From the NCBI GenBank assembly GCA_037892935.1, contig JAYXKI010000010.1, positions 1,488,001 to 1,552,000 of the forward strand: a stretch of DNA of 64,000 nucleotides, given 5' to 3'. The position numbers and the translations under genes are program-made. The number at the start of each line of letters is the position of its first letter. The stretch's first letter is position 1. This stretch comes from Phlebopus portentosus (taxonomy: Eukaryota > Basidiomycota > Agaricomycetes > Boletales > Boletinellaceae). Shown piece by piece: positions 39,675 to 57,394 of the stretch. A model generated the notes under the pieces. It had not been told where the DNA came from. It ran no database searches and saw only the letters and a program-made list of their open reading frames with translations.

Positions 39675-42600
39675 TTACCCCCCCTTCAAGGTTGGGCATC
39701 CCAACCAACCACATAAGCCTTCTGAGGATGTGAACTTGTACAGCACTCGCAGGCTTTGTTGAGGTATCGTTAACTTCCTCGGAGCTCCAGGATGTTTGCA
39801 ATAGAATTCTTGAATTGATTTCTGTGCATTATCCTTGACGTCAGATTCTGGCTGCCATGTCGCTTCCTCATATCCAACCCACTTGACCAAGAATTGGAGC
39901 TTGCCTCGATGTAGACACGAGTCAAGTATTTCTTCAACCTCGTACTCTTTCTGCTCATCAATGATCACTGGCAGTGGTGGAGGTGGCTTCTTCTGAGATT
40001 CAAAGGACGGTTGGACGGCTGGTTTGAGCAAGATCTCATTGAAGACTGGATGGACCTTCTTCCAGGTCTTCAGTAGTTTGAGTCTGTATGCACTCGCACC
40101 AATCTTTTCCACTACCTCAAAGGAACCAAACCATTTATCATCCATCTTCTTCATCGGTCGGATTGTCTTAATATTTCATCTGTCTAAGAAGACTTTCTGT
40201 CCTGCCTCATAGTTAATGGACTTCCCAACATGACAGTCGTGGACGCTTCATGTCTTCATTCGCTTGGGTTAGGTTACCTTGGGTGAGTTCATGCACCTCC
40301 TTGACATGCTTGGCAAATTCTTCTACTGACAGGTTTGATGATGCTGTTCTAACCCCCGTGAAGTCTAAGGGGTGCATTCCCGTGTTAACAAAGAAGGGAG
40401 ATTGCTTCGTCACTGAATGTTTGTAGTTGTTGTATGTAAATTCTGCGAGAGCCAGCCAGTCCGCCCAGTCCGACTGCCAATGGTTGATGTATAGCTGAAG
40501 GTATTGTTCTAGTTCCTGATTAACCCACTCTGTCTGTCCGTCAGTTTGTGGGTGATACGCTGTCGATGGGTTGCCTTCAATGTGGAGGAGCTTGTATAAC
40601 TCCTTCATCATCTTCGTGTCAAATTGTACCCCTCAGTCATGAATGATCTTCTATGGTAGTCTGTGTAATCGGAAGACGTGGTCTCTGTAGATCCTAGCCA
40701 TGCCTTCAGTCATTAACTTTGTAATTGTCGAAATTGCATAGATTTGTTTGCTAAAGCAATTGACTACTACACAAATTGCATTGAACCCATTCGATTCTGG
40801 CAATTCTCTAATTAGGTTGACTGTAACAATCTGCCATGGTGCCTCCGGCACCTCGTTAGGGTGCAAAACCTTTGCTCTCATTGTCCTTAGAGCCTTCATC
40901 CGCTGACAATGATCACACCCCCACACATACACCCACACATCTGCACTCATCCTCGGCCACCAGTACCTGCATGCTATCAGCTGGATCATCTTTGTTGCTC
41001 CTGGATGTCCTGCCAGGGTCGAGTCATAGTGTTCCTTCATGACAATCTCTCTGACACTTGCTGGTACATATAGCCAACGGCCCTTTCTTCACATGTCCCC
41101 TCTCTTCTCGACGTCCCTTGGCCTCACTCTCTTATCCTCTTGTCTCTGCACTTCTATGACCCTTTCGACGAGTACCTCTCTTGACATCTGAACTGTTCCT
41201 CTAACCAGCCATTCCTTCTTGACAAAAGTCACGTTCTCGTTATCACGCTTGCCCTTGTCATAATCAGCTCAGCATAACAACAGATCGGCTTTTCCCAATG
41301 TCTTTCCAGGCTTATGGACTAGCATAAAATCGAACTCAGCTAAATCGAGTCGCCAACAGGCTTGTCGACGATTTAGCTTCTGCAGCAATCAGAAGTACAT
41401 TAGATTTGCATAGTCTGTCCATGCCTCAAAAGGTTAGTTAGCTCCCTGGAGATATTGTTGCCATTCCTTTAGGGCTTGAACAATGGCAAGCATTTCCTTA
41501 TCGTAAATCTCATAATTTTGCTCTGCCTCTAGGAATGTTGATGACCGATAAGCAATCACCTTCCATTTGCTGTCTTGTTTCTGGAGAAGGACTCCACCAG
41601 TCGCAAAGTCCGACGCATCTGCTTCCACACAGAAAGGGTCCTCATTATTGGGTATCGCTAACATGGGAGGACTACTCAAATGACGCTTCAATTCCTCGAA
41701 TGCTGCCTGTTCATCTTCACCCCACTTTCATTCCACCTTACCCGTCAGTGTAGTCAAGGGTTTGACGACCGAACTGTAATCCTTAACAAAACGTCGCAAC
41801 CAATTTCCTAGTCCCAGGAATTGTTACAGTTCGTGGACATTCTTTGGAACTGGCCAGTCCTATACTGCTGCTGTCTTCTTAGGATCTATTCAAACTTCGC
41901 CATTGCCAATGATGTGCCCGAGGTACTTGACTGTGTCAACTTCAAACTTGCACTTCTGCAGCTTTAGGAAAAGTCCGTTTTGGCGAAGAATCTCAAAGAC
42001 TCGTTTGGTGCACCTGCGATATTCCTCTAGATCATTCGAGAAGATGAGAATGTTATTGAGGTAAATGATGATGATACTCTCATAAATTAGTTCCTGAAAG
42101 ATGTCGTTCATGAAGCCTTGGAACATCACTGGTGCATTACACAAGCTGAAGAACATGACTGTGGGGTTTGAATAAGCCTAGATTCGTCCAAAACACTGCC
42201 TTCCACTTGTCTCCCTCACGAATCCGGATGTTGTAGTATCCCCAACAAATGTTGAGCTTCGTGATGTACTTCACATTCTTGACCTTGTCAATGAGCTCAT
42301 TTATCAGTGGTAACAGGTATTTGTTCTTGACTGTCCCTTCATTGAGCTTTTGATAGTCTTGGATTGCTTGTAAGCTCCTATCCTCTTTCTTGATAAAGAA
42401 GAATGGTGACGCCATTGGAGATTTCGACTGTCGGATATGTCCTGATGCTAGGTTTTCCTCAATGAACTCCCTCATCGCTTCTTGTTCTTTTGGCAATAAC
42501 AGGTAAACCTTGCAGTTGCTAGGTTTGAAGTCCGGTTTCAGGTCAATAGCGTGGTCCTACGTTCGGTGGTTTGGTAAGCATTCAAATGATTCCTCACTAA

Positions 42601-42912: not shown

Positions 42913-44627
42913 TGTAGACTATCAGACTCTCCTAGACAGGGACAAAGGCGGCGGCGGCGGCGTTCGACCACAGGGAGGCGATGTCAAAGGTGTCGAGAGG
43001 AAAAAGGGGAGGTCCTACCAGATCTACAGACTACCTACAGGCTTTCAGAAGCGACACTCAGCTCAGATGTACAAGGATCTGGCCGTTAGGGCAGATCCGC
43101 CGCGCCTTCGAATAACTCGCCGCGGCGATCCGGGCCTCGGCGACTGTATAGGGATCGCCGAGTCCGACTGAACCGGCGAAGGGGTCGCAGCGGCGGACTG
43201 GGTGCGGGGCCGGCGGAGGTTCGCACCAGTGCAATTCCGCCTGGTAGTCGGGGAGATGACGTCGGAACGACACAGAGAGGGTGCGGGAGAGAGAGAGTCG
43301 ACACCACTTAAAAGGGGAGTAGTGTCGGCGGTGGAACGACGCGGAGGCGGCGGAGGCGGCGAGAAGTGGGAGACTGGACTCAGTCGAAAAGGGGCGCCGG
43401 CGCCAACGGAAGGGGTGAACACAAGAAGAGTGACAGCTGCGTCGAGGCGTCGACGAAGTCTAACAGATGCCTAGAAGAGTGACGGCTGCGTCGAGGCGTT
43501 GAGGAAGAATCACAAATGTTCAGGGCCCGAGCGGCGGCGGAGGCTAGAGAGAGAGAGATGGCGATGCAGATATGAGTGGGACGTCCCCGGAGCGATTACT
43601 AGACGAGTGACAGCTGCGCAGAGGGGAGACGACCAGGGCGGCGAATGAGCTCGGCGGCTTCTATCCTGTGAGATCCGGGGCCACGCCGTCAGGACGGGAT
43701 CGGCGAGGGCACGTGACCGGGAGTTCGCCCGATCCGGCTGTCTGGTTCTCTGTATATACTGGTTTCTTGAGGGGGGCTTCTTTACTTGTGGTTGGTCTCT
43801 GGTAACTGCGTTCTAGAGTGTATATCTGCTGCTTTTTAGGATACATACATGCTCTCTATATATACTATGAGTCCTTGGTAAGAAATATCACTTAAAGCGG
43901 CGGGCGGCGAGGCGTGACAGGCGCGCCGCGACGGCGGGGGCCGCCGCCGAGATGCGCCGCCAAGCCACCAAGACCTAGGGGCGCCCCAATCGGAACGGCG
44001 GAGTGCTGGTACGTCGTGTCGAATGTCGGCGCCGTTCGGATCGGTCAGGGCGCGCTCTATATAGATCTGAAACGCCAAGGGGTCGAATAAAACTAAAAGG
44101 GGGAATATACGGACGGCCGCCGGGCGCGCTACCGCGCTCGGCGTACAATGTGGGATGATAAGAATATGAAACAATCAACGAAATGGACCTGAGATTGGCT
44201 ATCGTTCACCCAGCCGGCGCGGCGGCGGGCATACACCTCCGCGATGGCGCGATATACATCCGCCGCAGCGCGTCCGGCCGCCGTGCGAGCACTTCCGAAG
44301 CCCGGAGTCACCGGATTCGGCGGAACCGTTCTTGAGAGAGGCTGGAGAAGGGGAACTAGGATTTGGTCGAAGGGAGGACAAGGTGATCATAAGATAGGAG
44401 TGGAGGCATCGCCGCCGGTTCGTATGGTCGGCGGCGGCGGCGGCGTGGATGCTGTTCCTAGGCCGCCGAAGGTCCGGCGGCCGCTGAGCAGGCTGTATTA
44501 TGGGTAACGGCGGCGAAGGCTGGTTTGCTGGCAATAGTACGCGGGGTGTCCTGGGTATGGCATAGGGGAGTACCGCCCTTACAGGCCTGTGCCGCTGGAC
44601 CGGTACAGGTTAGTGCGGCGCACTACA
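42913..44627 (-). repeat. 3' LTR of the young element
   Basis: 1715 bp, pair of 55689-57394, differing by about six base changes and nine extra bases in a GGAGGCGGC repeat near 43344. Short ORFs inside are identical in both LTRs only because the LTRs are; none resembles a known protein. A TATATA motif lies at 43856-43862. Confidence 0.93.
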
Positions 44628-44752: not shown

Positions 44753-45700
44753 TTAGTCTTCGGTTGTGAGATCGATCATCGGCGGATCGTGGATTGGTGC
44801 GGCGGTGTGCGGTGGAGGGTTGGCTCTGTCCGCCGCATCTTGTTGAGGTACGTTGTTGAGGTATGGGTGATGTTCAATGGATTCCCGAAGCTCGGCGAGG
44901 TGCTCTTCGATGTCCTGGGCGGCTGCGATTGCTGAGAGCGAATACTGTTGTGCTTGGAGTATAATGGCGATGACGTTGGCGGCGCAGTCGCGTATATCAT
45001 CGTCGCCGCGCTCGTCGAAGAGGCGTAAGACTTGGATTATGGCATTGTGGGATAGGTCTGAGGCGGCGTCGGAGTAAATGACAGCGTTTTCGAGTGCAAT
45101 AGGCCCTTCTCTGAGGATGGCGAGGGGGGCATTGGGTAGTACGCCATCGCCGATAGGCGCGCCGAGAATTATGGGGATCGTAGTGAGGGCGCCGCCGATG
45201 CGGAGCGTTTCTCGGATGCGGCAAACGAGTGTCGCTTTGTCGGCAGGCGTCAGATGGTGTCTGGCGAAGAGTTCGGGGATGATCTGAAGCATCGCGGGGA
45301 CGTGTCTGGCGGGGAACGGCATCGCCGCAGGAAACGCGTCGGCGAGGAGGTCGCAAAATGATCCCCAGTTTCCTCCGGAGAGGCGTGGGTCTTGACAGAG
45401 GAGTTGCTGGGCGTCCGGCGAGGCCCAAATGTACAGCAGGAAGATTAGAGTCGCCGTGTCGGGGCAGGGGTGATGAAAACTGCGAAGGGCGGCGATGAGA
45501 ATATTTGGTAGAGCGGTGTAATCAGGGTGCCATGGGTAGAGGAGCATGGGGTGCCCGGGAAGTGTGATTAATTGGGCGAAGTTCAAATCTAAAAGGTGTT
45601 GGGCATGGCGGGGGAAGTGGACTGGGTGCGGGACTTGGAGTAGTGGTGTCGCCGGTGCGAATGGAAACGCTTCGGCGAGGCTGGGAACCAGCTGGGGCAT
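44753..45700 (-). CDS. Accessory 315-aa ORF between pol and 3' LTR, sense to the element
   Basis: Complete ORF with ATG 45700 and TAA 44753-44755. I do not recognise the family. It is leucine/alanine-rich, mostly helical by eye (HPCPDTATLIFLLYIWASPD, WGSFCDLLADAFPAAMPF, NAIIQVLRLFDERGDDDI, NVIAIILQAQQYSLSAIA), with regular hydrophobic spacing as in helical-repeat proteins. No signal peptide, transmembrane anchor or nucleic-acid motif is evident. The last residues, PPMIDLTTED, match the SUMO-interacting motif type (hydrophobic-I-D-L-T followed by acids). Its position after pol is where env-like genes sit in some Gypsy elements, but nothing here looks like an envelope protein. It is divergent from the antisense gene at 46841, about 1.1 kb away. 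An upstream intron or an independent promoter is possible. Confidence 0.65.
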   Translation of the reverse strand: MPQLVPSLAEAFPFAPATPLLQVPHPVHFPRHAQHLLDLNFAQLITLPGHPMLLYPWHPDYTALPNILIAALRSFHHPCPDTATLIFLLYIWASPDAQQLLCQDPRLSGGNWGSFCDLLADAFPAAMPFPARHVPAMLQIIPELFARHHLTPADKATLVCRIRETLRIGGALTTIPIILGAPIGDGVLPNAPLAILREGPIALENAVIYSDAASDLSHNAIIQVLRLFDERGDDDIRDCAANVIAIILQAQQYSLSAIAAAQDIEEHLAELRESIEHHPYLNNVPQQDAADRANPPPHTAAPIHDPPMIDLTTED

Positions 45701-45898
45701 GTTGTAAGGAGCGCCGATGGTATTCGTAATCTGTAGGGTAGATGTTTTGGGGGCGGTGAGTAGTTCGCCGACCGCTTTATATATTTTCGGCGAGTGTTTT
45801 CCGGGTTGGCCGGAAGGTATGACGGCTTTTGGCGAGGTGAAGTTGCCAGTATTATAGTGTAGGGGCCAATATAGGCGAAAGCCGAAGTAGTGTTCTAA

Positions 45899-46245
45899 TG
45901 GAAGGGGGCCTAGGCGAAGGTGTTTCGTGTAGGCGGATCGTCGGCGGGACGAGTAAGTGGGATGGGAGGCTAGCGGCGGGGCTGGGTCGCCGGTAGTTCG
46001 GGTATGGTGGCCTGTAGCGGCGTGGGGCGAAGCGAACTTCGAATGGGAGGGGGCCTGGGCGAAGGAGTTTCGTACAGGCGGGTCGTCGGCGGGACGAGTA
46101 AGTGGGATGGGAGGCTAGCGGCGGGGCTGGGTCGCCGGTAGTTCGGGTATGGTGGCCTGTAGCGGCGTGGGGCGAAGCGAACTTCGAATGGGAGGGGGCC
46201 TGGGCGAAGGAGTTTCGTATAGGCGGGGCGTCGGAGGGACGAGCT
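45899..46245. repeat. 145-bp tandem repeat, about 2.4 copies
   Basis: The GGGGGCC motif recurs at 45904, 46049 and 46194, an exact 145-bp period. The unit includes GGGACGAGTAAGTGGGATGG and TTCGGGTATGGTGGCCTGTA. The array lies between the two divergent accessory genes of the young element, where a shared promoter or enhancer would be expected. Confidence 0.9.
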
Positions 46246-46840
46246 TCGATTTAGAAGGGAGTTCGGAAGTAAAGTTTAAATGGTTAATCATGGAAGGTGT
46301 CGTCATATCATGATCTTGATCTGGTACCAGATATGGATACAATGGCCTTGTAGTCAGGGGTAGTGGTACATCGGAAATACACTTCGGCGGGCTTTTGGCG
46401 GTCCGGGAACCAGTCGGGGACGCCAGGTAGTTAACTAGGGCGGTGTAGGTCGTAGCATATAGGTTGAGGATTTGTTAATGGGTGTAGGTACGGCTAGGGT
46501 AGGGTGTGCGGCGATATTTGATGATCGGCGGGGGGGATCGGCGTAGAATGTTGTATCGGCCGGCTTGGCAGGGGTCTGGAAGGTTGGGGCTGTGTTGTGG
46601 CGGGGTTCGGCGGATTGTTCCGGCGAGTTTTGGAGGGGGGAGAGTCACCGAGGGGTTTGTGGAATTTGAGTGGAGATTGCGGCGGAGCAGTGGGGAGGAT
46701 TTGGTAATTGATTGGTAAAAAGGGGGCGGGGAGGTCGCGTGTATGGAGGGCTGAAATCGGAGTTTGAATTGGGTGCGGCGAGGATATAGACGACGGGGAC
46801 TCGTGTCTGAGTTCCCCGTTTCTCTTTTTCTCTTTCCACC

Positions 46841-48507
46841 ATGGCGCCGACGATTCTCAGCGTCAGCAGCAGCAGCGGCAGCGACAGCGACAGCAGCAGC
46901 AACAACAGCAGGGAGGGGTCGGAGGCTCCCTCCGACCAGATGGAGGTGGACGCCGGGGCGGCGACGGGGGCTCCTGCCGCGGGCGGGATGTCGCGGGCCC
47001 CCAGCGGGCAAGAGGTCCCGCCGGAGTCGCAGGGGGAGACGGAGGAGGAGGGTGGGGGGGGGGGGGGGGGGGGAGGGGGGGGGAGAACTGGACGCGGCCG
47101 TGTGGGCGGCCATTACGGCGGTGAGGGGGTGGATCGAGCGGGCCCGAAACGATGAGGGGCCCGCTGCCGATGAGCTCGATGGGCTCTTGGTAAATTTGCG
47201 TTCCCTTGATAATAACCGTGTGAGCTGACGATCTGGTTTACTTTTTCAGAAGGGGCTTGGGGAGCGCTTCCCCGCGCTATCCGACGACGCGAGGGCTGAA
47301 AAGCCCGAATATTATTGCGCGGGGAGGTGGTTGGTGAACCGGGCGACGGTGGTGCGGATGGCCGCCGGGGAGGCTAAGGACGCCGCCGAGGCGTTGGACA
47401 AGGCCGCCCAGTCGGAGGTGAATCACCTCCGACGCGTCGCGGAGAGGCTGGCCGAGCGCCGGGAGGAGGAGGCTCGTGAGGAGGCGAAGCGGAGCGCGGT
47501 GAAGGTGGCCGAGGAGGCGAAAGCCTCCTTCCTCAAGACGCTCGCCACCCTGCGAGTTGGGGGCCCGGAGGTCGTCGAGGCCTTCTGTAGGTCCTCAGGG
47601 CGCGATGAGGCGGGGAACCTGGTAAGTCGTTGTCTTGAATCTTGTTTTTTACTGTCTCTGATAATATCTTCTTAGGTCGCGGCGCCTAAAACGAGCACCA
47701 AAGCGAAGGTGCAGGCGCGTCCCGCGGCCAGGCCGGCGACGGGAAAGACGATTACTCTTCCTGGGTCGTCGATCCCTGGTCTTGAGGTGGCGGGTTCGTC
47801 CAGCGAGACGCTCAAGGGGGAGAGTGGTCGAGTGACGCGAGGGGGACGCTCGGGGACGGTCACGGGAAAGACCATTACTCTTGAGGTTGAGTCTGATGAG
47901 GGGTCAACGCGAGCGAAAAGGTCGAGTGGAAAGGAGGTATATGTCGATGTGTGTTTTATGTCCTGGATCTTATTCTTCACTGACATGTTTCGTTTCTAGG
48001 TGCCTCCCCTTCCGAAGCGCGTACGTGAGCCGGTGGTCGAGCCGCCGGCGAAACGAGCAAGAGCGCCGGGAGCGGCGGCCTCAGGTGGGGGCAGGGCGAA
48101 AGAGGAGGCGACAGGAAGACGGGACGGGGCGGTGAGTGCTGTCTTGAATTTTGTTCGTGACACTCTCTGACTATAATATTCAGAGGGAGGAGGGGGGTTG
48201 GGAGTTCGAGAGGGTCGGGCGGCTCCCCAGGGGTCAGAGCCGCCGCCTCCTCGAGTTCATGTCGCCGGGGTGCGAGCGGTGCATCGGGCGTGGGGAGGTG
48301 TGCACGAGGCGCCCGCCGGCGCTCCTGTGCCAGGCGTGCCGGGTATCACACCACCGGTGCGATATCTTGGAGTCGGACGTGACCTTCCTGGCGCAGCAGG
48401 AGGTCCTCGCTCTCCGCCGGCAGCTGGAGGGGATGGAGTCGACATTGGCGGGAGAGAGTGCGGGTGGGGGGGTGGAGGAAAAGGCCCAGGGTGAACGCCG
48501 TGGATAG
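46841..48507 (+). CDS. Antisense five-exon accessory gene with Zn(II)2Cys6-type cysteine cluster
   Basis: Exons 46841-47189, 47250-47621, 47676-47936, 48000-48131 and 48184-48507. All four introns are 52-63 bp, GT-AG and phase 0, and the frame holds across each, which is strong evidence for a real gene on the strand opposite to pol. The protein has a Ser/Asp-rich start (ISVSSSSG-like), an acidic/Gly stretch, a WAAITAVRGWIERARNDEG segment, a long charged coiled-coil region (exon 2, Ala/Glu/Arg-rich), a repeated TGKTITL motif (exon 3), a PPLPKRVREP/AKRARAP basic region, and a C-terminal cluster C-x2-C-x6-C-x8-C-x2-C-x6-C followed by leucine-spaced helix LAQQEVLALRRQLEGME. That spacing is the fungal binuclear zinc cluster consensus, although the usual basic residues after the second Cys are missing. 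A poly-G tract in exon 1 (47051-47081) leaves the frame off by one. Function unknown; DNA binding is inference. Confidence 0.72.
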
Positions 48508-48946: not shown

Positions 48947-51900
48947 TCATAAGTTGGATTCGGCGTCTAGGTCATCCGCCGCGGTCTCTTGTGCTAGGTT
49001 GTCGAGTTCCGGCGTGGATTTCTGAGTGAGGTCTTCGACTGAGTCGATGATTCGAGTGCGTGCGTGGTAGGGGATAACTCTGAATGCTGCGTAACGAAGT
49101 GCTGAAATGGCGCCGTTTGCTTCGGCGAGAACGTAGGATCCTCCTTTGGTTCGCCGCACGACAATCATGGGCCCTAGGTATTTCGGCTTTGTCTTCCTGT
49201 TCAGCTCGTTTTCTATCTGGGAGTTCCTGACCAGCACAAGTGAGCCGGGGGCGAAATTGTAATCCTTAATTGTTGCGGCGTGGGTTTTCTCGAAGTCCTG
49301 TATGGATTTGAAGCGTCCCTGGATGACAGATTCCTTGACTCGTTGGAGGTCCTCTGGTCGTTTCTGGAGTGCCCTTGCTCTCGCCGCGATGAGTTGTGCG
49401 TCGGACATCTTGGAGGTGACCGCCGGCGAGATGTACGTCTGTTCGGCGAGGTCGAAGGGGAGTACTGGTTCGACGCCGTGGGCCATAAAGTATGGGCTAT
49501 AGCCTGTGCGGCGTTGGATCGTGATTCGTTCAGCCCAAATGGCGTGGTATATATGCTGGGACCACTTGTCTGGGCTTGCGTCGGCGAGCTTCATTAGGGT
49601 TTCTCTGAGGTCCCGGTGTCGCCGCTCAATGATTCCGTTGGCTCTTGAGTTGTACGGCGAGATTCGGATGTGCTGGACATTGTATTTGGCGAGAAGGCGG
49701 GGTAAGTCCTTGGAGAATGAGGCGCCGTTGTCGGTTACGATCTCCTCGACTCGTCCCCATCTTGACAAAATATCTTCAAAAACGAAGCGTGCTATCGAGG
49801 CGGCGTTATCTTTGCGCAGCATTCGGAATTCGGGGTATCCGGTGAGCGAGTCTCGGGCCTGAACGATATACTTGAATCCGCCGGAGGGCGGCATTAACAT
49901 CGCGTCTATATGCACCCTGGAGAATAGCGGCGCGGGCGTCGGGCTTTGCGGCGTGGTATATATTTTCGTAAACTGCCTCGTTTGGCATCGGTGGCAGGTT
50001 CTGATATACCATTTGATGTCCTGATGCATTCCTGGCCACCAGAATCGGTCTTGAATCGTTGTTCTGACAGAGAAGAAGCCTTTGTGGCCGAGTTCGTCGT
50101 GGGCAGTTCTGATAATGGAAATTCGGCGTTCCGGCGGAATAACGAGTGCGGCGTGACCTTTGTCGTTCTTTCTGTAGAGTTCGCCATGCTGTAGGAAGAA
50201 ACGAGTGGCTCGGCGTACGAACTGTTTGAATTGGGCGTCTGAAAGATCGGCGGGGCAGGATGGGGCGGCGAGAAATTTCTTGATACACTCGAGGTCTTTG
50301 AATCCTTTTTGGGAGGCTTTGTGATCGGGGAGTTGTACGGGATCGCTGTTTGGGGTATAGGCCGTGTCGGAAAGGTCTTGGTTAAGGAAGGAGTATTGAT
50401 GGTCGATCCATTCTTCGAAGCCTTCGTCTCGCGGCGGATCGGTTTGTGCGGCGCCGCGGCGTGATAGGCCGTCTGGGCCGAGGTGTTTGGGCGCCGGCGT
50501 ATGAATGATCGTGAAATTGAAAAGTAAGATGCCGGCGATCCATCTATTGATAGTGGCGTTGGGTTGGAGGTCTGGGTTGTTAATCATGCCTTTAATATAG
50601 CTGGCGTCGACTTCGACGAAAAAGTGATCAATGCCGACGAGGTATATGCGCGCCTCATATAGAGCTCTGAAGAGGCCGAAGAGTTCTAGCTTCGCCTGGG
50701 AGTAGTTTCGTTCTCTGTTGTTCCAAGTTCCGGACATGAAACGGGATGGGACCCTTTCGCCGTTTTCGCCGAGCTGTAACAAGATGGCGCCGTAGCCATA
50801 AACGGAGGAGTCTACACAGAAATGAACAGGTTGTCCTGACTCGTAGTCAATAGAACGAATGGCGCCGGAGGATGCTACGGCGTGTTTTAGTAGATCCATA
50901 GATCGGCGGGCGTCTTCGTCGAATAGGAAGGGCTGGTCTTTGCAGAGTAGTTTGTTGAGACCGGCGGATAGTCTGGCGTAGTTCTTCACGAAGTGTCTAA
51001 GGACGCCGGCCGTACCTAAGAATGCCCGAACATCGTGGACATCCCGTGGCGGCGGCCAATCCATTATCGCCTTGACCCTGGATGCGTCTGGGACTCGGCC
51101 GGCGTAATTACAGGTGTGTCCTACAATGACTGCTTCTGGTGCGGCGATGATGAGTTTCTTACCCGAGACAGTGGCGCCGACTACTTTGAGGCGTTGGAGG
51201 ACGCGGTTGACGTCGTTGAGATGTTCCCAGATGAAGCGGCGGATGTTCGGGTTTCCCGGAATGGTTTCGTAGTTTCCGGCGGCGAGCTCGTATCGGGATT
51301 TAGGCCCTTTTACAGGAATATCGTCGATGTATGGGATACAGACGTGGGGTATTTCATCTTTGAGTACGAAGGTGACGTCGGCGTGCATAATTTGTTGCGA
51401 GTTGGTGTATCCTATAGGAATCGACGTGAGGCGAAACGCGCCGAGAGGTGTTTGGAATGTTGTGAGGTCGCGGGATCGTACGTCGAGCTTTCTCTGGTCG
51501 AAGGCGACGAATAGATCGAGTGTGGTGTAGCAGGCATGGCCGCCGAAGGTCTCGGCGATGTGTTCTGTGGGGTAAGGGACGGAGGGGTCGCGTATGGAGA
51601 CTTTGTTGAGTGGCTGGAGGTCGTGTACAAGTCGAAGGGATTTTCCATCCTTTTTAACGACGCAGAACCATCGGGAGCGGTAAGAGGAATTGGACGGCTC
51701 GTAGACGCCGGAGTTAATTTTGTCTTTGATTATGCGAACCACTTCGTTGAAGATCCCCGGCGGAATAGGGATGTTTTTCATTACCCACGGCGTATGGTCG
51801 ACAGTAGGAATTAGAACCGGCGCGAAGTATTGATAGTCGAGGGAGCCCTTTTCTGTTTCGTCCCAAGCTAGGCCGTCTTCATGTTGTAGAAGGGTCCAGT

Positions 51901-52432
51901 AGGCGAGGTTCTTTTCTTCCTCACTGAGGAAGCCAGTTGGGTCGATGTCTAGGGCGTCGAAGCGCTCTTGTGTAAAGCGGCGTCCTGGAATGAACTCCGG
52001 CGGATCGATAGGGAGCTTCGGTAGATCTGTGAGCGGCTGCGGGTGTGATTTGCGTATGATGCGGTAGTCCTCTGGAAGGGTCGCCGATATAGGTTTGGTT
52101 CGTTGGGCGACCTTTTTGTACTTGTAGGCGTGCCCGGCCGGTTGAGCGGCCGTGGTATTAAGAGTGCTGTTGGAGCGGGGTATTCGGTTGCGTACGGGGA
52201 GTGATTCATCATCGAAAATAGAGTTAATGAAGAAGGCTGGATGTTTTTGGGCTTTGTTCTGGGCTGTGAAACCCTTTTCGGTGGATCGATCAGAAAATGA
52301 GGTGGAGATATCTATGGTGCGGGGATTGAAGGCGATATTTACAGTCGCCGGGCCGTGATGGAGGACATATGCGTCGGGTATGGTTGGGGGTATATGCCGC
52401 ATATGTTCCGGCGGACGCCGCTGGGACGTCAT
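48947..52432 (-). CDS. Pol of the young element: RT, RNase H, integrase (1161 aa, intact)
   Basis: Reverse transcriptase spans about residues 205-440, with Asp306 in TTLDLFVAF and the active-site YIDD at 368-371. RNase H (about 535-655) keeps Asp541, Glu583 and Asp609. The integrase has an HHCC finger (His778, His783, Cys813, Cys816) and a catalytic core with Asp843, Asp901 and Glu936, spaced D-57-D-34-E. The C-terminus has a GPY/F-like module (KYLGPMIVVRRTKGGSYVL) and no chromodomain, unlike the surrounding old element. No stop or frameshift interrupts it. The ATG overlaps the gag-pro stop as ATGA (52432-52429), and an in-frame TAG lies six bases upstream of the ATG. Pol must therefore start at this ATG, most simply by termination-reinitiation. 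Confidence 0.93.
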   Translation of the reverse strand: MTSQRRPPEHMRHIPPTIPDAYVLHHGPATVNIAFNPRTIDISTSFSDRSTEKGFTAQNKAQKHPAFFINSIFDDESLPVRNRIPRSNSTLNTTAAQPAGHAYKYKKVAQRTKPISATLPEDYRIIRKSHPQPLTDLPKLPIDPPEFIPGRRFTQERFDALDIDPTGFLSEEEKNLAYWTLLQHEDGLAWDETEKGSLDYQYFAPVLIPTVDHTPWVMKNIPIPPGIFNEVVRIIKDKINSGVYEPSNSSYRSRWFCVVKKDGKSLRLVHDLQPLNKVSIRDPSVPYPTEHIAETFGGHACYTTLDLFVAFDQRKLDVRSRDLTTFQTPLGAFRLTSIPIGYTNSQQIMHADVTFVLKDEIPHVCIPYIDDIPVKGPKSRYELAAGNYETIPGNPNIRRFIWEHLNDVNRVLQRLKVVGATVSGKKLIIAAPEAVIVGHTCNYAGRVPDASRVKAIMDWPPPRDVHDVRAFLGTAGVLRHFVKNYARLSAGLNKLLCKDQPFLFDEDARRSMDLLKHAVASSGAIRSIDYESGQPVHFCVDSSVYGYGAILLQLGENGERVPSRFMSGTWNNRERNYSQAKLELFGLFRALYEARIYLVGIDHFFVEVDASYIKGMINNPDLQPNATINRWIAGILLFNFTIIHTPAPKHLGPDGLSRRGAAQTDPPRDEGFEEWIDHQYSFLNQDLSDTAYTPNSDPVQLPDHKASQKGFKDLECIKKFLAAPSCPADLSDAQFKQFVRRATRFFLQHGELYRKNDKGHAALVIPPERRISIIRTAHDELGHKGFFSVRTTIQDRFWWPGMHQDIKWYIRTCHRCQTRQFTKIYTTPQSPTPAPLFSRVHIDAMLMPPSGGFKYIVQARDSLTGYPEFRMLRKDNAASIARFVFEDILSRWGRVEEIVTDNGASFSKDLPRLLAKYNVQHIRISPYNSRANGIIERRHRDLRETLMKLADASPDKWSQHIYHAIWAERITIQRRTGYSPYFMAHGVEPVLPFDLAEQTYISPAVTSKMSDAQLIAARARALQKRPEDLQRVKESVIQGRFKSIQDFEKTHAATIKDYNFAPGSLVLVRNSQIENELNRKTKPKYLGPMIVVRRTKGGSYVLAEANGAISALRYAAFRVIPYHARTRIIDSVEDLTQKSTPELDNLAQETAADDLDAESNL

Positions 52433-54907
52433 TGTCTAGGGGGGCGCTGTTTTTCTGTCCCGGCGCCGCGCTGAATCGTCGGGATCGACATGGTTTCGTT
52501 CGTATCGGGATGAGTAAGGTATAGCGTCTGTTCGCCGTCGGCCTCGTCTATGACCTGCGCCCTAGTGTGTACGAAAAACGGCCGGCCTAATAGTAACTGA
52601 AAGGGGGCCTTTTCGACGACCTGGACTTGGACAACAATAGAGAAGGCGCCTATGGTGAGTCTGACGCGAGGGATGAGTCCCGCCGAGCGTGAGGTTTGTC
52701 TGTCGGCGGTTTCTACTGTGATTGCTTGGCTCATTATCGTCGGGGACCCGAGGTCCTTCCATACCTCTTTTGGCACGGCGATAAATGTCGACCCCGAGTC
52801 GAGCAAAGCTTTTACTTCGAATTTATCATCGAGCCAGACCTCGATTTCGCGGAGGGGAATGTTCGGCGGGGCGACGGAAGGATCTTCGTCGCCGAAGTTA
52901 ACCGGCGAGGTGGGCCTCGGGATCGAGGCGTACATTGCCATCTCGTGATCAGGATTTTCCCTAATTAGTTCTCGGCGCCCCGTGACGAATTCTTTACACT
53001 TCTTTCTGATTTCGGGAGAGGCGGCGAGCAGGCTTCGGATCGGCAGGGTGACTTCCGAGTCCAGAATCTTGTCGAAAACGTTCGATACCGCGGCGTCATC
53101 GTATGCTGGTACGGTGGTTCGGTATTGTGGCTTCGGATCCGCCGCGTCGTCCCTGTGCGGCGCCGAGGGCGTGGGCGGCGGGGCCGGGCGTTGTCCGGGT
53201 GGTTTCCCCTTCTTGCTGTTATCTCCCCATTTCGGGTTGGGGTCTCGAGGCGGCTTTCTGGTGGGGATTTCGATTCCGTCGAAAACTTCTCTGGGGCCTG
53301 GCCGTCTTCCGGCGGCGGCGAAGGCATTCTGCGGTTGTTCGGGGGATTCTTCTTGTTCAAAAAGGAGCGCGACTCCGTCGCAGGCATCGTCGTCTGGGGG
53401 GTCTTCTGGGGTGATAGCCTCGAAGTAGTTCGATTCCTGGATTCGCGGCGGCAGGCCGTTCGGCGGATTTGTATTGTAGGCTAAGGGAGGCGGTGCCCGG
53501 TTGAGGCCCTGGTACATAGATTCCTGTGATGGAGGGTGTGACTGATACATGGATTGTTGAGTCGGCGGTTGTCCCTGATATGTGGGATCCTGCCTCGGCG
53601 GAGCGATCCTTGGCAGCGTGTCGGATACGGGCTGAATGGGGAGCTGGACACCAACTGGTGCGTAGTTTGGATTCTCTATGAAGAGCTTATTAATCCTGTC
53701 CAGTACTGACATCCCCGGTTCTCCCTGAGGAAGTCGGCCGTTGGAGGGGTACAAGTACCCTTTGGTGTCGGCGAGCATGATTCCCCTCTGGATCAGGGAG
53801 ATCTTGGTGGGACAGTCGCGGGTAGAGTGCGTTACACTGGCGCATACGGCGCATTTTCCGTTAAATCTGGCTTGTCGGGGCTGCGGCGGGGCTCCTGCGG
53901 TTGGCGGCGGAGCGCGGCGGTTTGACTTCTCGGTGGCTTCACGGAGGGCGCGCATTTCCTGGATTAGGAGGGACACCCACGGTTCTTCTTGCTTGACCTG
54001 GGGTTGGTTGATGACTCCGTAGGCCGGAGCACCGGGCTGCGGCGGCGGCGTGTACGTCGTAACTTGTGTATAGGTGGGCATGGCCGCTGTCGCCGCATAC
54101 ATCAGTGGTTGGTCGGCGGTTGTGAGGCGGCCGCCGGTTAGGATGCGTTCTAGTTCTCTTACAACTGTGTCGATGTCCCAGGGGCACGCCGGTAGGGTGG
54201 TCGTGCTTGACAAACTGCAAATTAAGATCCAGCTCTCTGTTTAGCGTCGGGTGGAGGCCTTCTCTGAACATACGCTTCTGTTCGAACTCTGATAGCATGC
54301 CGGCGTCGATAAGATACGAGGAGACGGTGATAAAGTTCCTATGGTATTCGCCGAGGGCGGCGGTGTTCAGCATAATTTGGTTGCGGCTTATGTTAATAAG
54401 GTTGTGGAGGTCGCCGAGTGTGTACTGGGTCGTAGCGTTTGGGTAGTACTTTAGGATAGCGTCTTTGAATGCCATAAAGTCGTTTCCTCTCGTTTCGGGC
54501 CTTTTGCACCATAGCTGATCGTCTTTAGCGTCGGCGTAGCATCTTGCCCAAGCGATCATTTGTGCATCTGTTAGGCCGGCGCTTCGTCCAAATAGCCGGA
54601 CTCTGTTAAAGAAGATGGGGATTTCTGCGGGGTCGCCGGAGGCGTTGAACTTCGGCGCGCGGCGGTCTCCCGGGTAGGGCATTGTAGCTCCTGGCACTGG
54701 TGGGTTGGAACCACTTAATAGATAGGTGTCTGGGTCACTGAGGTCTGGAAGAGGGGGAAAGGCGCCGGTGGGGGGTGGTGCTGGTGCGGCATAGGCTGGT
54801 GCGGTGAGAGACGGCTGTAGGGGGGGCGGCGGGATTGATCCTGAGGCTGTAGGGGGTGCAGCGGGGTTGCCAGTATGGATGCTGGTCATTGTTGGTATCG
54901 AGGCCAT
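52429..54907 (-). CDS. Gag and aspartic protease of the young element, frame broken once
   Basis: Starts MASIPTMTSIHTGN at ATG 54907. The capsid-like part (APKFNASGDPAEIPIFFNRV, WARCYADAKDDQLWCKRP, YPNATTQYTLGDLHNLIN) is typical of Ty3/Gypsy gag. Near 54184-54181, a four-C run in the sense strand, the frame must move +1 for the sequence to continue as WDIDTVVRELERILTGG. The original frame goes on to a stop at 53939 without meaningful sequence. After the shift come a Pro/Gln-rich linker, a CCHC zinc knuckle (CAVCASVTHSTRDC), a long disordered tail and an aspartic protease with VKALLDSGSTFIAVP, ending in the ATGA overlap with pol. The shift lies upstream of the zinc knuckle, so it may be a mutation or base-calling error in the C run, or a programmed +1 shift. 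The protease Asp is intact. Confidence 0.83.
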
Positions 54908-54934: not shown

Positions 54935-55688
54935 TTAGGAGTTGTCAATTGGGGAGAGCCACGGCCTCTGAGCTGGTGTCGGCGGCGTAAGAGGGGGGGG
55001 GGGGGAGAGCCTCGCCGATCGCTCTTCTTCGACGGGGGATAGTGGAGAGTCGGGGGTGATTGCGTGGCCGTGTACGAGGGAGTCGGGGACGTAAAGGTCG
55101 TCGTCCTCCTGTTCTTCTGCGGCGGAGTATAACTGTAGGCCGGTGCGGCGGTGGGGATCTGGGGGGTTGTCTATGTCGGAGAAGAGGTCGGTTTCGATGG
55201 GGCCGGTGGCTGGAGGTTCCTGGAGGGATATTGACAGGTCCTCGATGCCGCCGGGGACACGAACGTGAGTACTGGGGCGAATTTCGGATTCGCGGAGGTC
55301 TTTAGGAACGTGGATGAAACGAGGGGGAATTATAGGCGATATAGGGTGTGCGGCGGCGGTGCTTGCGCTTTCGCCGGGCGGTGGGTTACGTGTAAAAGGA
55401 GTGATAGATGCTCTTCTGGGACGCCGGGTGGGTGGGTCGTCTGCGGCGATGGACGCGCGTCGACGGTTCGGCGCGGACGGAGATCTGGGTGCGGTGGGAC
55501 GGGGTTCTTCTGTTCGGCCTCTTGTAAAGAGTGTGGAATAATGGTATGGTTGGCCGGCGGTTGTGGCTGAGGCTGTTTGACTGTTTTCCGCCCTTCTTTG
55601 CAGCCTTAGTGAGTATCGCGTGCCCTTGGAAGGGCCTGAGATCGGTTGGAACGACACCTTTTTACCTCCCTCGCGGTGGGCTCCAAAA
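54935..55688 (-). other. ATG-less leading ORF in frame with gag
   Basis: A frame is open from inside the 5' LTR (55747) to a TAA at 54935-54937, about 270 codons with no Met codon apart from a GTG. It is in the same frame as gag, which starts nine codons after the TAA. It reads as Pro/Arg/Ser-rich and acidic sequence (RRASIAADDPPTRRPRRA, ESEIRPSTHVRVPGGIEDL, SAAEEQEDDDLYVPDSL). The TAA lies in CTCCTAAC, a fungal branch-site look-alike, followed 14 bp later by a CAG. The stop could thus be removed by splicing, though no good donor is obvious. It may be translated as a leader of gag, via a spliced exon, or not at all. Confidence 0.4.
55668..55685 (-). promoter_or_regulatory. Candidate primer-binding site of the young element
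   Basis: Three bases inside the 5' LTR the element strand reads TGGAGCCCACCGCGAGG. A PBS normally starts TGG, pairing with the CCA end of a host tRNA. The tRNA was not identified. Confidence 0.5.
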
Positions 55689-57394
55689 TGTAGACTATCA
55701 GACTCTCCTAGACAGGGACAAAGGCGGCGGCGGCGGCATTCGACCACAGGGAGGCGATGTCAAAGGTGTCGAGAGGAAAAAGGGGAGGTCCTACCAGATC
55801 TACAGACTACCTACAGGCTTTCAGAAGCGACACTCAGCTCAGATGTACAAGGATCTGGCTGTTAGGGCAGATCCGCCGGGCCTTCGAATAACTCGCCGCG
55901 GCGATCCGGGCCTCGGCGACTGTATAGGGATCGCCGAGTCCGACTGAACCGGCGAAGGGGTCGCAGCGGCGGACTGGGTGCGGGGCCGGCGGAGGTTCGC
56001 ACCAGTGCAATTCCGCCTGGTAGTCGGGGAGATGACGTCGGAACGACACAGAGAGGGTGCGGGAGAGAGAGAGTCGACACCACTTAAAAGGGGAGTAGTG
56101 TCGGCGGTGGAACGACGCGGAGGCGGCGAGAAGTGGGAGACTGGACTCAGTCGAAAAGGGGCGCCGGCGCCGACGGAAGGGGTGAACACAAGAAGAGTGA
56201 CAGCTGCGTCGAGGCGTCGACGAAGTCTAACAGATGCCTAGAAGAGTGACGGCTGCGTCGAGGCGTTGAGGAAGAATCACAAATGTTCAGGGCCCGAGCG
56301 GCGGCGGAGGCTAGAGAGAGAGAGATGGCGATGCAGATATGAGTGGGACGTCCCCGGAGCGATTACTAGACGAGTGACAGCTGCGCAGAGGGGAGACGAC
56401 CAGGGCGGCGAATGAGCTCGGCGGCTTCTATCCTGTGAGATCCGGGGCCACGCCGTCAGGACGGGATCGGCGAGGGCACGTGACCGGGAGTTCGCCCGAT
56501 CCGGCTGTCTGGTTCTCTGTATATACTGGTTTCTTGAGGGGGGCTTCTTTACTTGTGGTTGGTCTCTGGTAACTGCGTTCTAGAGTGTATATCTGCTGCT
56601 TTTTAGGATACATACATGCTCTCTATATATACTATGAGTCCTTGGTAAGAAATATCACTTAAAGCGGCGGGCGGCGAGGCGTGACAGGCGCGCCGCGACG
56701 GCGGGGGCCGCCACCGAGATGCGCCGCCAAGCCACCAAGACCTAGGGGCGCCCCAATCGGAACGGCGGAGTGCTGGTACGTCGTGTCGAATGTCGGGGCC
56801 GTTCGGATCGGTCAGGGCGCGCTCTATATAGATCTGAAACGCCAAGGGGTCGAATAAAACTAAAAGGGGGAATATACGGACGGCCGCCGGGCGCGCTACC
56901 GCGCTCGGCGTACAATGTGGGATGATAAGAATATGAAACAATCAACGAAATGGACCTGAGATTGGCTATCGTTCACCCAGCCGGCGCGGCGGCGGGCATA
57001 CACCTCCGCGATGGCGCGATATACATCCGCCGCAGCGCGTCCGGCCGCCGTGCGAGCACTTCCGAAGCCCGGAGTCACCGGATTCGGCGGAACCGTTCTT
57101 GAGAGAGGCTGGAGAAGGGGAACTAGGATTTGGTCGAAGGGAGGACAAGGTGATCATAAGATAGGAGTGGAGGCATCGCCGCCGGTTCGTATGGTCGGCG
57201 GCGGCGGCGGCGTGGATGCTGTTCCTAGGCCGCCGAAGGTCCGGCGGCCGCTGAGCAGGCTGTATTATGGGTAACGGCGGCGAAGGCTGGTTTGCTGGCA
57301 ATAGTACGCGGGGTGTCCTGGGTATGGCATAGGGGAGTACCGCCCTTACAGGCCTGTGCCGCTGGACCGGTACAGGTTAGTGCGGCGCACTACA
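55689..57394 (-). repeat. 5' LTR of the young element
   Basis: 1706 bp, partner of 42913-44627. Being the upstream LTR in the element's minus orientation, it should carry the active promoter. A CTATATAT/TATATAC motif near 56624-56632 and TATATAGA near 56825 are TATA-like candidates. Confidence 0.93.

Follow-up and report, generated by a model that had tools for sequence, protein, structure and literature searches.

The window analyzed here, a 64,000-nucleotide stretch of the Phlebopus portentosus genome (contig JAYXKI010000010.1, positions 1,488,001 to 1,552,000, forward strand), contains a Ty3/Gypsy retrotransposon that carries an additional gene at 46841–48507 on the + strand, between pol, which lies on the − strand, and the 3′ long terminal repeat (LTR). 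The class of the element is given by its two LTRs, its protease, and a pol gene in the order reverse transcriptase (RT), RNase H, integrase. The LTRs at 42913–44627 and 55689–57394 bound it with TGTAG...CTACA ends and a 4-bp CCGT flank, and they are 99.1% identical, with 6 mismatches and 9 gap positions. This arrangement, with an antisense reading frame placed after pol and ahead of the 3′ LTR, is termed aORF-3R.

Structure of the antisense gene

A sequence-only reading of this DNA had proposed five exons opposite gag-pol and four GT-AG introns of 52 to 63 bp, and our gene model agrees. Exon 1 (46841–47189) encodes an acidic segment rich in serine and glutamate, and in the window copy it spans 349 nt from the ATG, its frame being lost inside a poly-G tract at 47050–47083. 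Intron 1 (47190–47249, 60 bp) separates it from exon 2 (47250–47621), whose 124 codons are open in 142 of 3000 shuffles. Intron 2 (47622–47675, 54 bp) is followed by exon 3 (47676–47936), in which the peptide TGKTITL occurs twice, once as TGKTITLEVE; intron 3 (47937–47999, 63 bp) is followed by the basic exon 4 (48000–48131), and intron 4 (48132–48183, 52 bp) by exon 5 (48184–48507, stop codon included), which bears a six-cysteine cluster and a predicted C-terminal helix. All four introns contain a branch-like CTGAC or CTGAT motif 17–25 nt before the intron end, and the GC content is 0.695 in the exons versus 0.367 in the introns. The joint shuffle probability of open frames in exons 2–5 and in the part of exon 1 behind the poly-G tract is ≈2e-4.

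The poly-G tract differs in length among copies of the element, many of which are thereby out of frame. The earlier assignment of phase 0 to every intron consequently needs qualification for the window copy: it is correct behind the tract and incorrect when the frame is counted from the ATG. The frame loss is possibly a homopolymer assembly error, and the tract could also act as a slippery switch.

The gene is present in other copies of the family with its intron positions kept. A search of the genome assembly (38.4 Mb in 23 contigs) with the gene DNA gave 42 matches, of which 26 extend over the full 1,667 bp at 95–100% identity. Each of these 26 retains all four introns, and none of the partial matches ends at exon borders; an intron-less copy would fall outside the full-length count. 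These results bear out the idea that antisense introns survive the RNA intermediate. Splice dinucleotides are likewise intact in 26/26 full-length copies, which is weak proof of splice-site conservation because the introns have barely mutated (13 changes among 229 sites). The full frame is open in seven of the 26, one of the seven being without an ATG. Nearly every difference between copies is C>T or G>A (230 of 258 changes in the codons compared), and 57–81% of this decay falls at CpG in deep comparisons. Across the copies of 46841–48507 (L009–L033), the divergence pattern resembles methylation-driven or RIP (repeat-induced point mutation)-like decay.

Better support for the junctions comes from Sanghuangporus. 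In the family C gene of Sanghuangporus sanghuang (P0029, an NCBI gene model), the junctions are the same two that we read by eye in a family C element of the genome studied here (L072; see below), and the Sanghuangporus weigelae homolog P0003 aligns with the family A protein, the product of the gene described here, without a break at all four junctions. Both P0029 and P0003 are gene predictions, not RNA.

The antisense gene in related element families

To place the element among its relatives, we scored the best 150 of 355 candidates from an RT search of the genome and retained 120 copies; the 30 dropped before the tally were 13 fragments and 17 distant RTs at 28–30% identity. Family A, to which the window element belongs, accounts for 34 of the 120 copies (91–100% identity), and the other 86 are related at 43–66%, with 73 of these at 60–66%. 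One copy each of two related families, family B (L071, RT identity 66%) and family C (L072, 63%), was fetched downstream of pol. An antisense open reading frame (ORF) with a six-cysteine cluster is present in both, with the cluster reading CDQCQKRGRDCVGLPQRTCAPCLKQAKGC in family B and CERCARTGRVCEGFPGQACDYCRTKARRRC in family C. By-eye reading gave two phase-0 introns in the family C gene, and the family B gene has at least one, so that seven introns have been read across the three families, all in phase 0. L071 shows no sign of the first exons of the Sanghuangporus protein P0025; their place is taken by AT-rich sequence that contains internal repeats.

Genome searches with the three genes retained 75 of 91 rows for the B protein and 32 of 103 for the C protein, and the rows dropped were 7 of 42 for the A gene, 16 of 91 for B, and 71 of 103 for C, these last being fragments and family B genes. 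An opposite-strand gene lies downstream of the RT in 105 of the 120 tallied copies (30 of family A, 50 of B, and 25 of C); among the other 15, five have a same-strand neighbor and ten have none. The antisense gene is standard equipment of these elements, not a stray capture or a one-off transduction. Stop-free copies of the gene exist in families B and C as well.

Homology between the proteins of B and C is clear (hhalign E 8e-10), and therefore at least their gene predates the split of the two families. Given this dating and the lack of a clear host homolog in the genome, a recent capture is not supported. An initial genome search with the whole A protein (169 matches, part of them listed) was redone with single exons, and the 35 matches to exon 5 and 30 to exon 2 all belong to family A but one. 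The exception, at C8:515576–515758 (−), matches exon 5 weakly, with E 0.11 and 36% identity over 65 residues, and is a possible host relative. The suggestion that the element had captured or long maintained a regulator-like gene thus survives in its second half: long maintenance by the element is supported by the three related families and by the Sanghuangporus homologs.

Homologs in Sanghuangporus and tests of selection

Each of our protein-database searches scored roughly 8,000 candidates with the most words in common with the query. The search with the A protein returned four Sanghuangporus proteins and 18 polyubiquitin-like ones that share a short common peptide, and searches with the B protein and with a profile of A, B, and C returned Sanghuangporus matches only. 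On these protein matches, the genome would belong to Sanghuangporus sanghuang, a wood-decay mushroom, or to a close relative. The TGKTITLEVE of exon 3 is identical to polyubiquitin over ten residues, and LTGKTITL is retained in S. weigelae P0003. The shared peptide may be due to chance, to convergence, or to a capture long ago.

All six cysteines are retained in 5 of 6 Sanghuangporus homologs, or in 5/5 of the cross-species pairs compared, a count that excludes P0004, whose model has no cluster, and the S. sanghuang proteins, which were treated as belonging to the same species or its nearest relative. P0003 shows 47% identity over nearly the whole A protein and contains no stop. In neutral simulations carried to the identity of P0003, the means were 10–11 stops and 0 of 1000 runs remained stop-free; the corresponding number was 2 of 1000 for family B, and for family C it was 76 and 118 of 1000, which is not significant. 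This test is weakened by the fact that annotated proteins are stop-free by the annotators' choice. In family B, the cluster and the next 15 residues exceed the rest of the protein in conservation (93–95% versus 79%; Fisher 0.027 and 0.007), and in A (49 versus 47%) and C (67–71 versus 66–69%) the cluster is no more conserved than the rest.

The ratio of nonsynonymous to synonymous substitution rates (dN/dS) among copies, which had been suggested as a check, proved uninformative within the genome. Old family C copies gave dN/dS values of 0.46 and 0.50, and purifying selection in these copies was dropped as a conclusion after CpG-aware neutral simulation, in which the observed CpG-heavy spectrum alone yields means of 0.49 (0.34–0.70) and 0.45 (0.32–0.64). 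For family A, exons 2–5 compared with copy L034 likewise fall within the neutral null range. The ratio of synonymous to nonsynonymous to stop changes in the 26 copies is 70:88:6 for singletons and 41:51:2 for shared changes, a similar make-up.

The six-cysteine cluster and its predicted fold

The cluster, CERCIGRGEVCTRRPPALLCQACRVSHHRC (48271–48360), lies toward the C terminus of the protein. It has the spacing C-x2-C-x6-C-x8-C-x2-C-x6-C that had been read from the DNA, and it is followed by a predicted helix at exon-5 residues 66–94 (48379–48465). The general pattern of Zn2Cys6 proteins is C-x2-C-x6-C-x5..12-C-x2-C-x6..8-C. This pattern is matched by A (in the protein of copy L020), B, C, and P0003, and by 0 of 20,000 shuffles of each. 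A Foldseek search with the structure model of exon 5 returned 13 matches at E-values up to 10, and all 13 are Zn2Cys6 transcription factors. In the family B model, a helix starts at each C-x2-C and a further helix follows the cluster. At the fold level, the models thus lend support, weakly scored, to a Zn2Cys6-like module with a C-terminal helix. Like the fungal factors Gal4, Put3, Hap1, Ppr1, and Pho7, the protein combines this cysteine spacing with a post-cluster helix in the model; unlike them, it scores below the Pfam cut-off, carries the cluster near its C-terminal end, and is more basic in the second half.

Sequence searches of Pfam, NCBIfam, and the PDB placed the antisense proteins of A, B, and C in no family above threshold, the A protein entering the PDB search only as part of a profile. 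The TRP28 domain (PF04195) gave no Pfam match at E≤1 with the A protein, the L071 and L072 ORFs, or P0003, and no bZIP domain was matched in Pfam at E≤1 among the antisense proteins scanned.

Proposed function of the antisense gene

The gene is probably the element's own control protein. In the reading that we consider slightly better than even, given the sequence features above, it is a resident antisense accessory gene encoding a Zn2Cys6-like DNA-binding protein that would act on its own element in the manner of HBZ, the antisense protein of human T-cell leukemia virus type 1 (HTLV-1). The gene would be transcribed from the 1.1-kb spacer between the divergent accessory genes (45701–46840), a putative promoter region, and then spliced in vivo. 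Its product, comprising an acidic low-complexity N-terminal part, basic patches, the six-cysteine module, and a short, possibly dimerizing helix at the C terminus, would enter the nucleus, bind zinc and DNA, and act back on the element's own promoter, either in the CGG-rich LTR or in the spacer, which contains a 145-bp tandem repeat (45893–46243). The number of repeat stretches varies between element copies, from one to six among the 25 checked. The presumed outcome is that the protein sets the frequency of gag-pol RNA production, as HBZ does in HTLV-1, with the sign of the effect possibly in either direction. The introns survive reverse transcription because they are antisense to the genomic RNA, and their presence would mean that the protein can be made only from antisense transcripts spliced in the nucleus. 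A bolder version, which we put forward tentatively, holds that the clade has kept an intron-split Zn2Cys6-type factor through the divergence of at least three families as a self-regulating circuit on the LTRs, with the introns serving as a strand lock. If true, fungi would have an equivalent of HBZ that arose independently, and its regulator could never be made from genomic RNA.

CGG triplets are commonly bound by Zn2Cys6 factors. Both LTRs are rich in CGGCGG, and the 3′ LTR contains 23 CGGCGG clusters, or 13 per kb versus 4–8 per kb elsewhere in the element; the motif itself occurs there 30 times versus 3.2 in shuffles, a roughly tenfold difference. The target is nonetheless a guess, because the excess of single CGG triplets in the LTR is slight after Markov correction (z 2.0) and the B and C loci are nearly without CGGCGG (none in 6 kb at the B locus, 3 clusters in 6 kb at the C locus) despite their similar cysteine clusters. 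We regard the CGG-rich LTR as a lead only.

Besides these CGG counts, several results weigh against a self-regulating Zn2Cys6-like factor. The gene structure is read from genomic DNA and gene predictions, and the gene models of Sanghuangporus vaninii P0004 (an A homolog) and S. sanghuang P0001 are without the cluster. The dN/dS values among copies in the genome do not depart from what neutral decay at CpG gives. All of the Foldseek E-values are 0.2 or worse, the structure models are modest (pLDDT, the predicted local distance difference test score, 62 and 75; pTM, the predicted template modeling score, 0.32 and 0.33), and the cysteine spacing alone may drive the fold matches. A hidden Markov model comparison of the cluster with the Zn2Cys6 families, as the sequence-only reading had advised, leaves exon 5 below the threshold of Pfam PF00172 (Zn_clus), at E 0.13 and at 12.9 bits against a cut-off of 21; the spliced A protein, B (L071), C (L072), and P0003 give no hit to this family. 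Similarity of A to B and C is confined to the cluster (hhalign E 0.0048 and 9e-4, probability 7 and 23), and a tblastn search with the A protein gives E 0.048 in L072 and nothing convincing in L071. Because A resembles B and C in the cluster only, common ancestry of the three genes is argued from the combination of cluster, position, and orientation. Finally, 36 of the 142 gene places, fragments included, have no tallied RT in range, the tally covering the best 150 of 355 RTs.

Other explanations can be set against the same evidence. Control might operate at the level of RNA, with the antisense transcript pairing with the 3′ part of the genomic RNA to lower activity and the protein being secondary. 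Such a transcript would overlap the genomic RNA between pol and the 3′ LTR, antisense RNA of yeast Ty1 is described as inhibiting transposition in the available text of PMC7175516, and silencing through double-stranded RNA is named as a possible role in the relevant passages of PMC7264820. An RNA-only role needs no conservation of the protein, however, and yet the protein is recognizable between species over all or much of its length, with six cysteines in five pairs, and has fewer stops than neutral expectation in A and B; we therefore consider this role unlikely. We hold a protein that acts on the host rather than on the element's promoter, through anti-silencing of methylated copies or on host genes, to be rather improbable too. 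The heavy C>T and G>A decay, much of it at CpG, points to methylation, against which an anti-silencing factor could work, but Pfam and NCBIfam scans revealed no chromatin enzyme or known anti-silencing family.

The six-cysteine protein could instead serve in the particle or during integration, as a nucleic-acid chaperone or as an integration-targeting factor, and not in transcription. The gene does sit in an env-like position, and basic, low-complexity zinc-binding proteins often bind RNA. Antisense spliced expression would, however, uncouple such a protein from gag-pol, the element already has a gag region of its own, along with a weak match to a CCHC knuckle (PF14392, E 0.29), and the fold matches are transcription factors, all of which makes this function quite improbable. 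A passenger gene that does nothing, whether a host gene captured long ago or a nested insertion that has decayed, would agree with the 19 of 26 A copies that have no full frame and with the neutral character of the changes within the genome. We judge this reading very improbable nevertheless, given the constant position and strand in three families, the stop-free copies in B and C, the cross-species stops below neutral expectation for A and B (for C not significantly so), and the exon searches of the genome, which gave no clear host homolog.

Relation to known antisense genes

The sequence-only reading knew of no named system that matched, a claim that does not hold for the arrangement, as antisense extra genes between pol and the 3′ LTR are described in the available portions of PMC7264820 and PMC11963269. 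In the former, these comprise gene23 of Grande, RIRE2, the aORF-3R of PvRetro13, and brtn of Boty, and gene23 is credited with its own upstream promoter and a nuclear product. The product domains of these four differ from ours or are unknown. The brtn gene is the antisense gene of a fungal element, Boty of Botrytis cinerea (PMC7264820 and PMC8365987, in the sections at hand), and we liken it to the present gene by arrangement only, introns and cysteines being outside the comparison. In the Retand lineage of plant Gypsy elements, antisense ORFs occur with a TRP28 domain in 97% of clusters, together with tandem repeats in the same region, and a regulatory role is suggested (PMC11963269, in the text available). 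Tandem repeats near an antisense gene are therefore a feature of both systems, as far as that text describes them; Retand, however, is a plant lineage with TRP28, whereas the present gene is fungal, with four introns, a six-cysteine cluster, and no TRP28. The words "intron" and "zinc" do not occur in the main text of PMC11963269, and "intron" is absent from the review PMC7264820, which itself calls for antisense and spliced transcripts to be examined.

HBZ of HTLV-1 is antisense and has a spliced form, and its product acts in the nucleus as a transcription factor that reduces expression from the 5′ LTR, according to the available sections of PMC10186651. To the extent described there, it resembles the present gene in lying antisense within an LTR element and in its spliced transcript, which is predicted in our case. 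It differs in being a bZIP protein with its promoter in the 3′ LTR, whereas here the protein has a predicted zinc cluster and the start codon is 2.2 kb inward of the LTR. Homing endonuclease genes that lie antisense in group I introns and contain spliceosomal introns are reported in the text at hand of PMC9548176. These are similar in that a mobile element carries antisense genes with spliceosomal introns, as that text has it, and different in that the element is a ribosomal DNA intron and not an LTR element and the product is a homing endonuclease. In the openly licensed PMC literature, mostly judged by listing, we found no fungal LTR element described as carrying an antisense zinc-cluster gene with introns, and no report of a multi-intron structure or a zinc-cluster-like domain in such an antisense gene.

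The function of antisense genes of LTR retrotransposons is described as unsolved, with most products having no domain of known role (PMC7264820 and PMC11963269, in the parts available). The product of the gene described here resembles a classical fungal transcription factor, encoded in an intron-interrupted gene, and the 142 gene places and the Sanghuangporus homologs offer material for a direct test. If confirmed, the proposed role would indicate that antisense transcription factors arose independently in retroviruses and fungal retrotransposons for self-control. Some "hypothetical proteins" of mushrooms are retrotransposon genes despite their introns, which are readily taken as the sign of a host gene.

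Other components of the element

The remaining parts of the element are encoded on the − strand. Inward of the 5′ LTR (55689–57394, placed by alignment to the 1,715-bp 3′ LTR at 42913–44627) lie two gag-region ORFs without a Pfam match, one of 270 amino acids (54935–55747) with a GTG start just within the LTR and one of 322 amino acids (53939–54907). They are followed by an aspartyl protease ORF of 594 amino acids (52429–54213; PF13650, E 3.4e-9) and by pol, of 1161 amino acids (48947–52432), which contains RT, RNase H, and integrase (PF17921, E 5.1e-19; PF17917, E 4.6e-14). The RNase H, the integrase zinc domain, and the protease are all above the Pfam cut-offs, and PF00078 (8.9e-7) and PF00665 (1e-6) in pol are slightly below theirs. 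A second accessory ORF, in sense orientation and 315 amino acids long (44753–45700), has no known domain in Pfam or NCBIfam scans; it matches 42 places in the genome, 24 over the full length. Outside the element, the ORF at 39675–40154 (−) looks by eye, from its unscanned translation, like the chromodomain-bearing end of a pol gene, and judging by this ORF, the element appears to lie inside or beside another retroelement.
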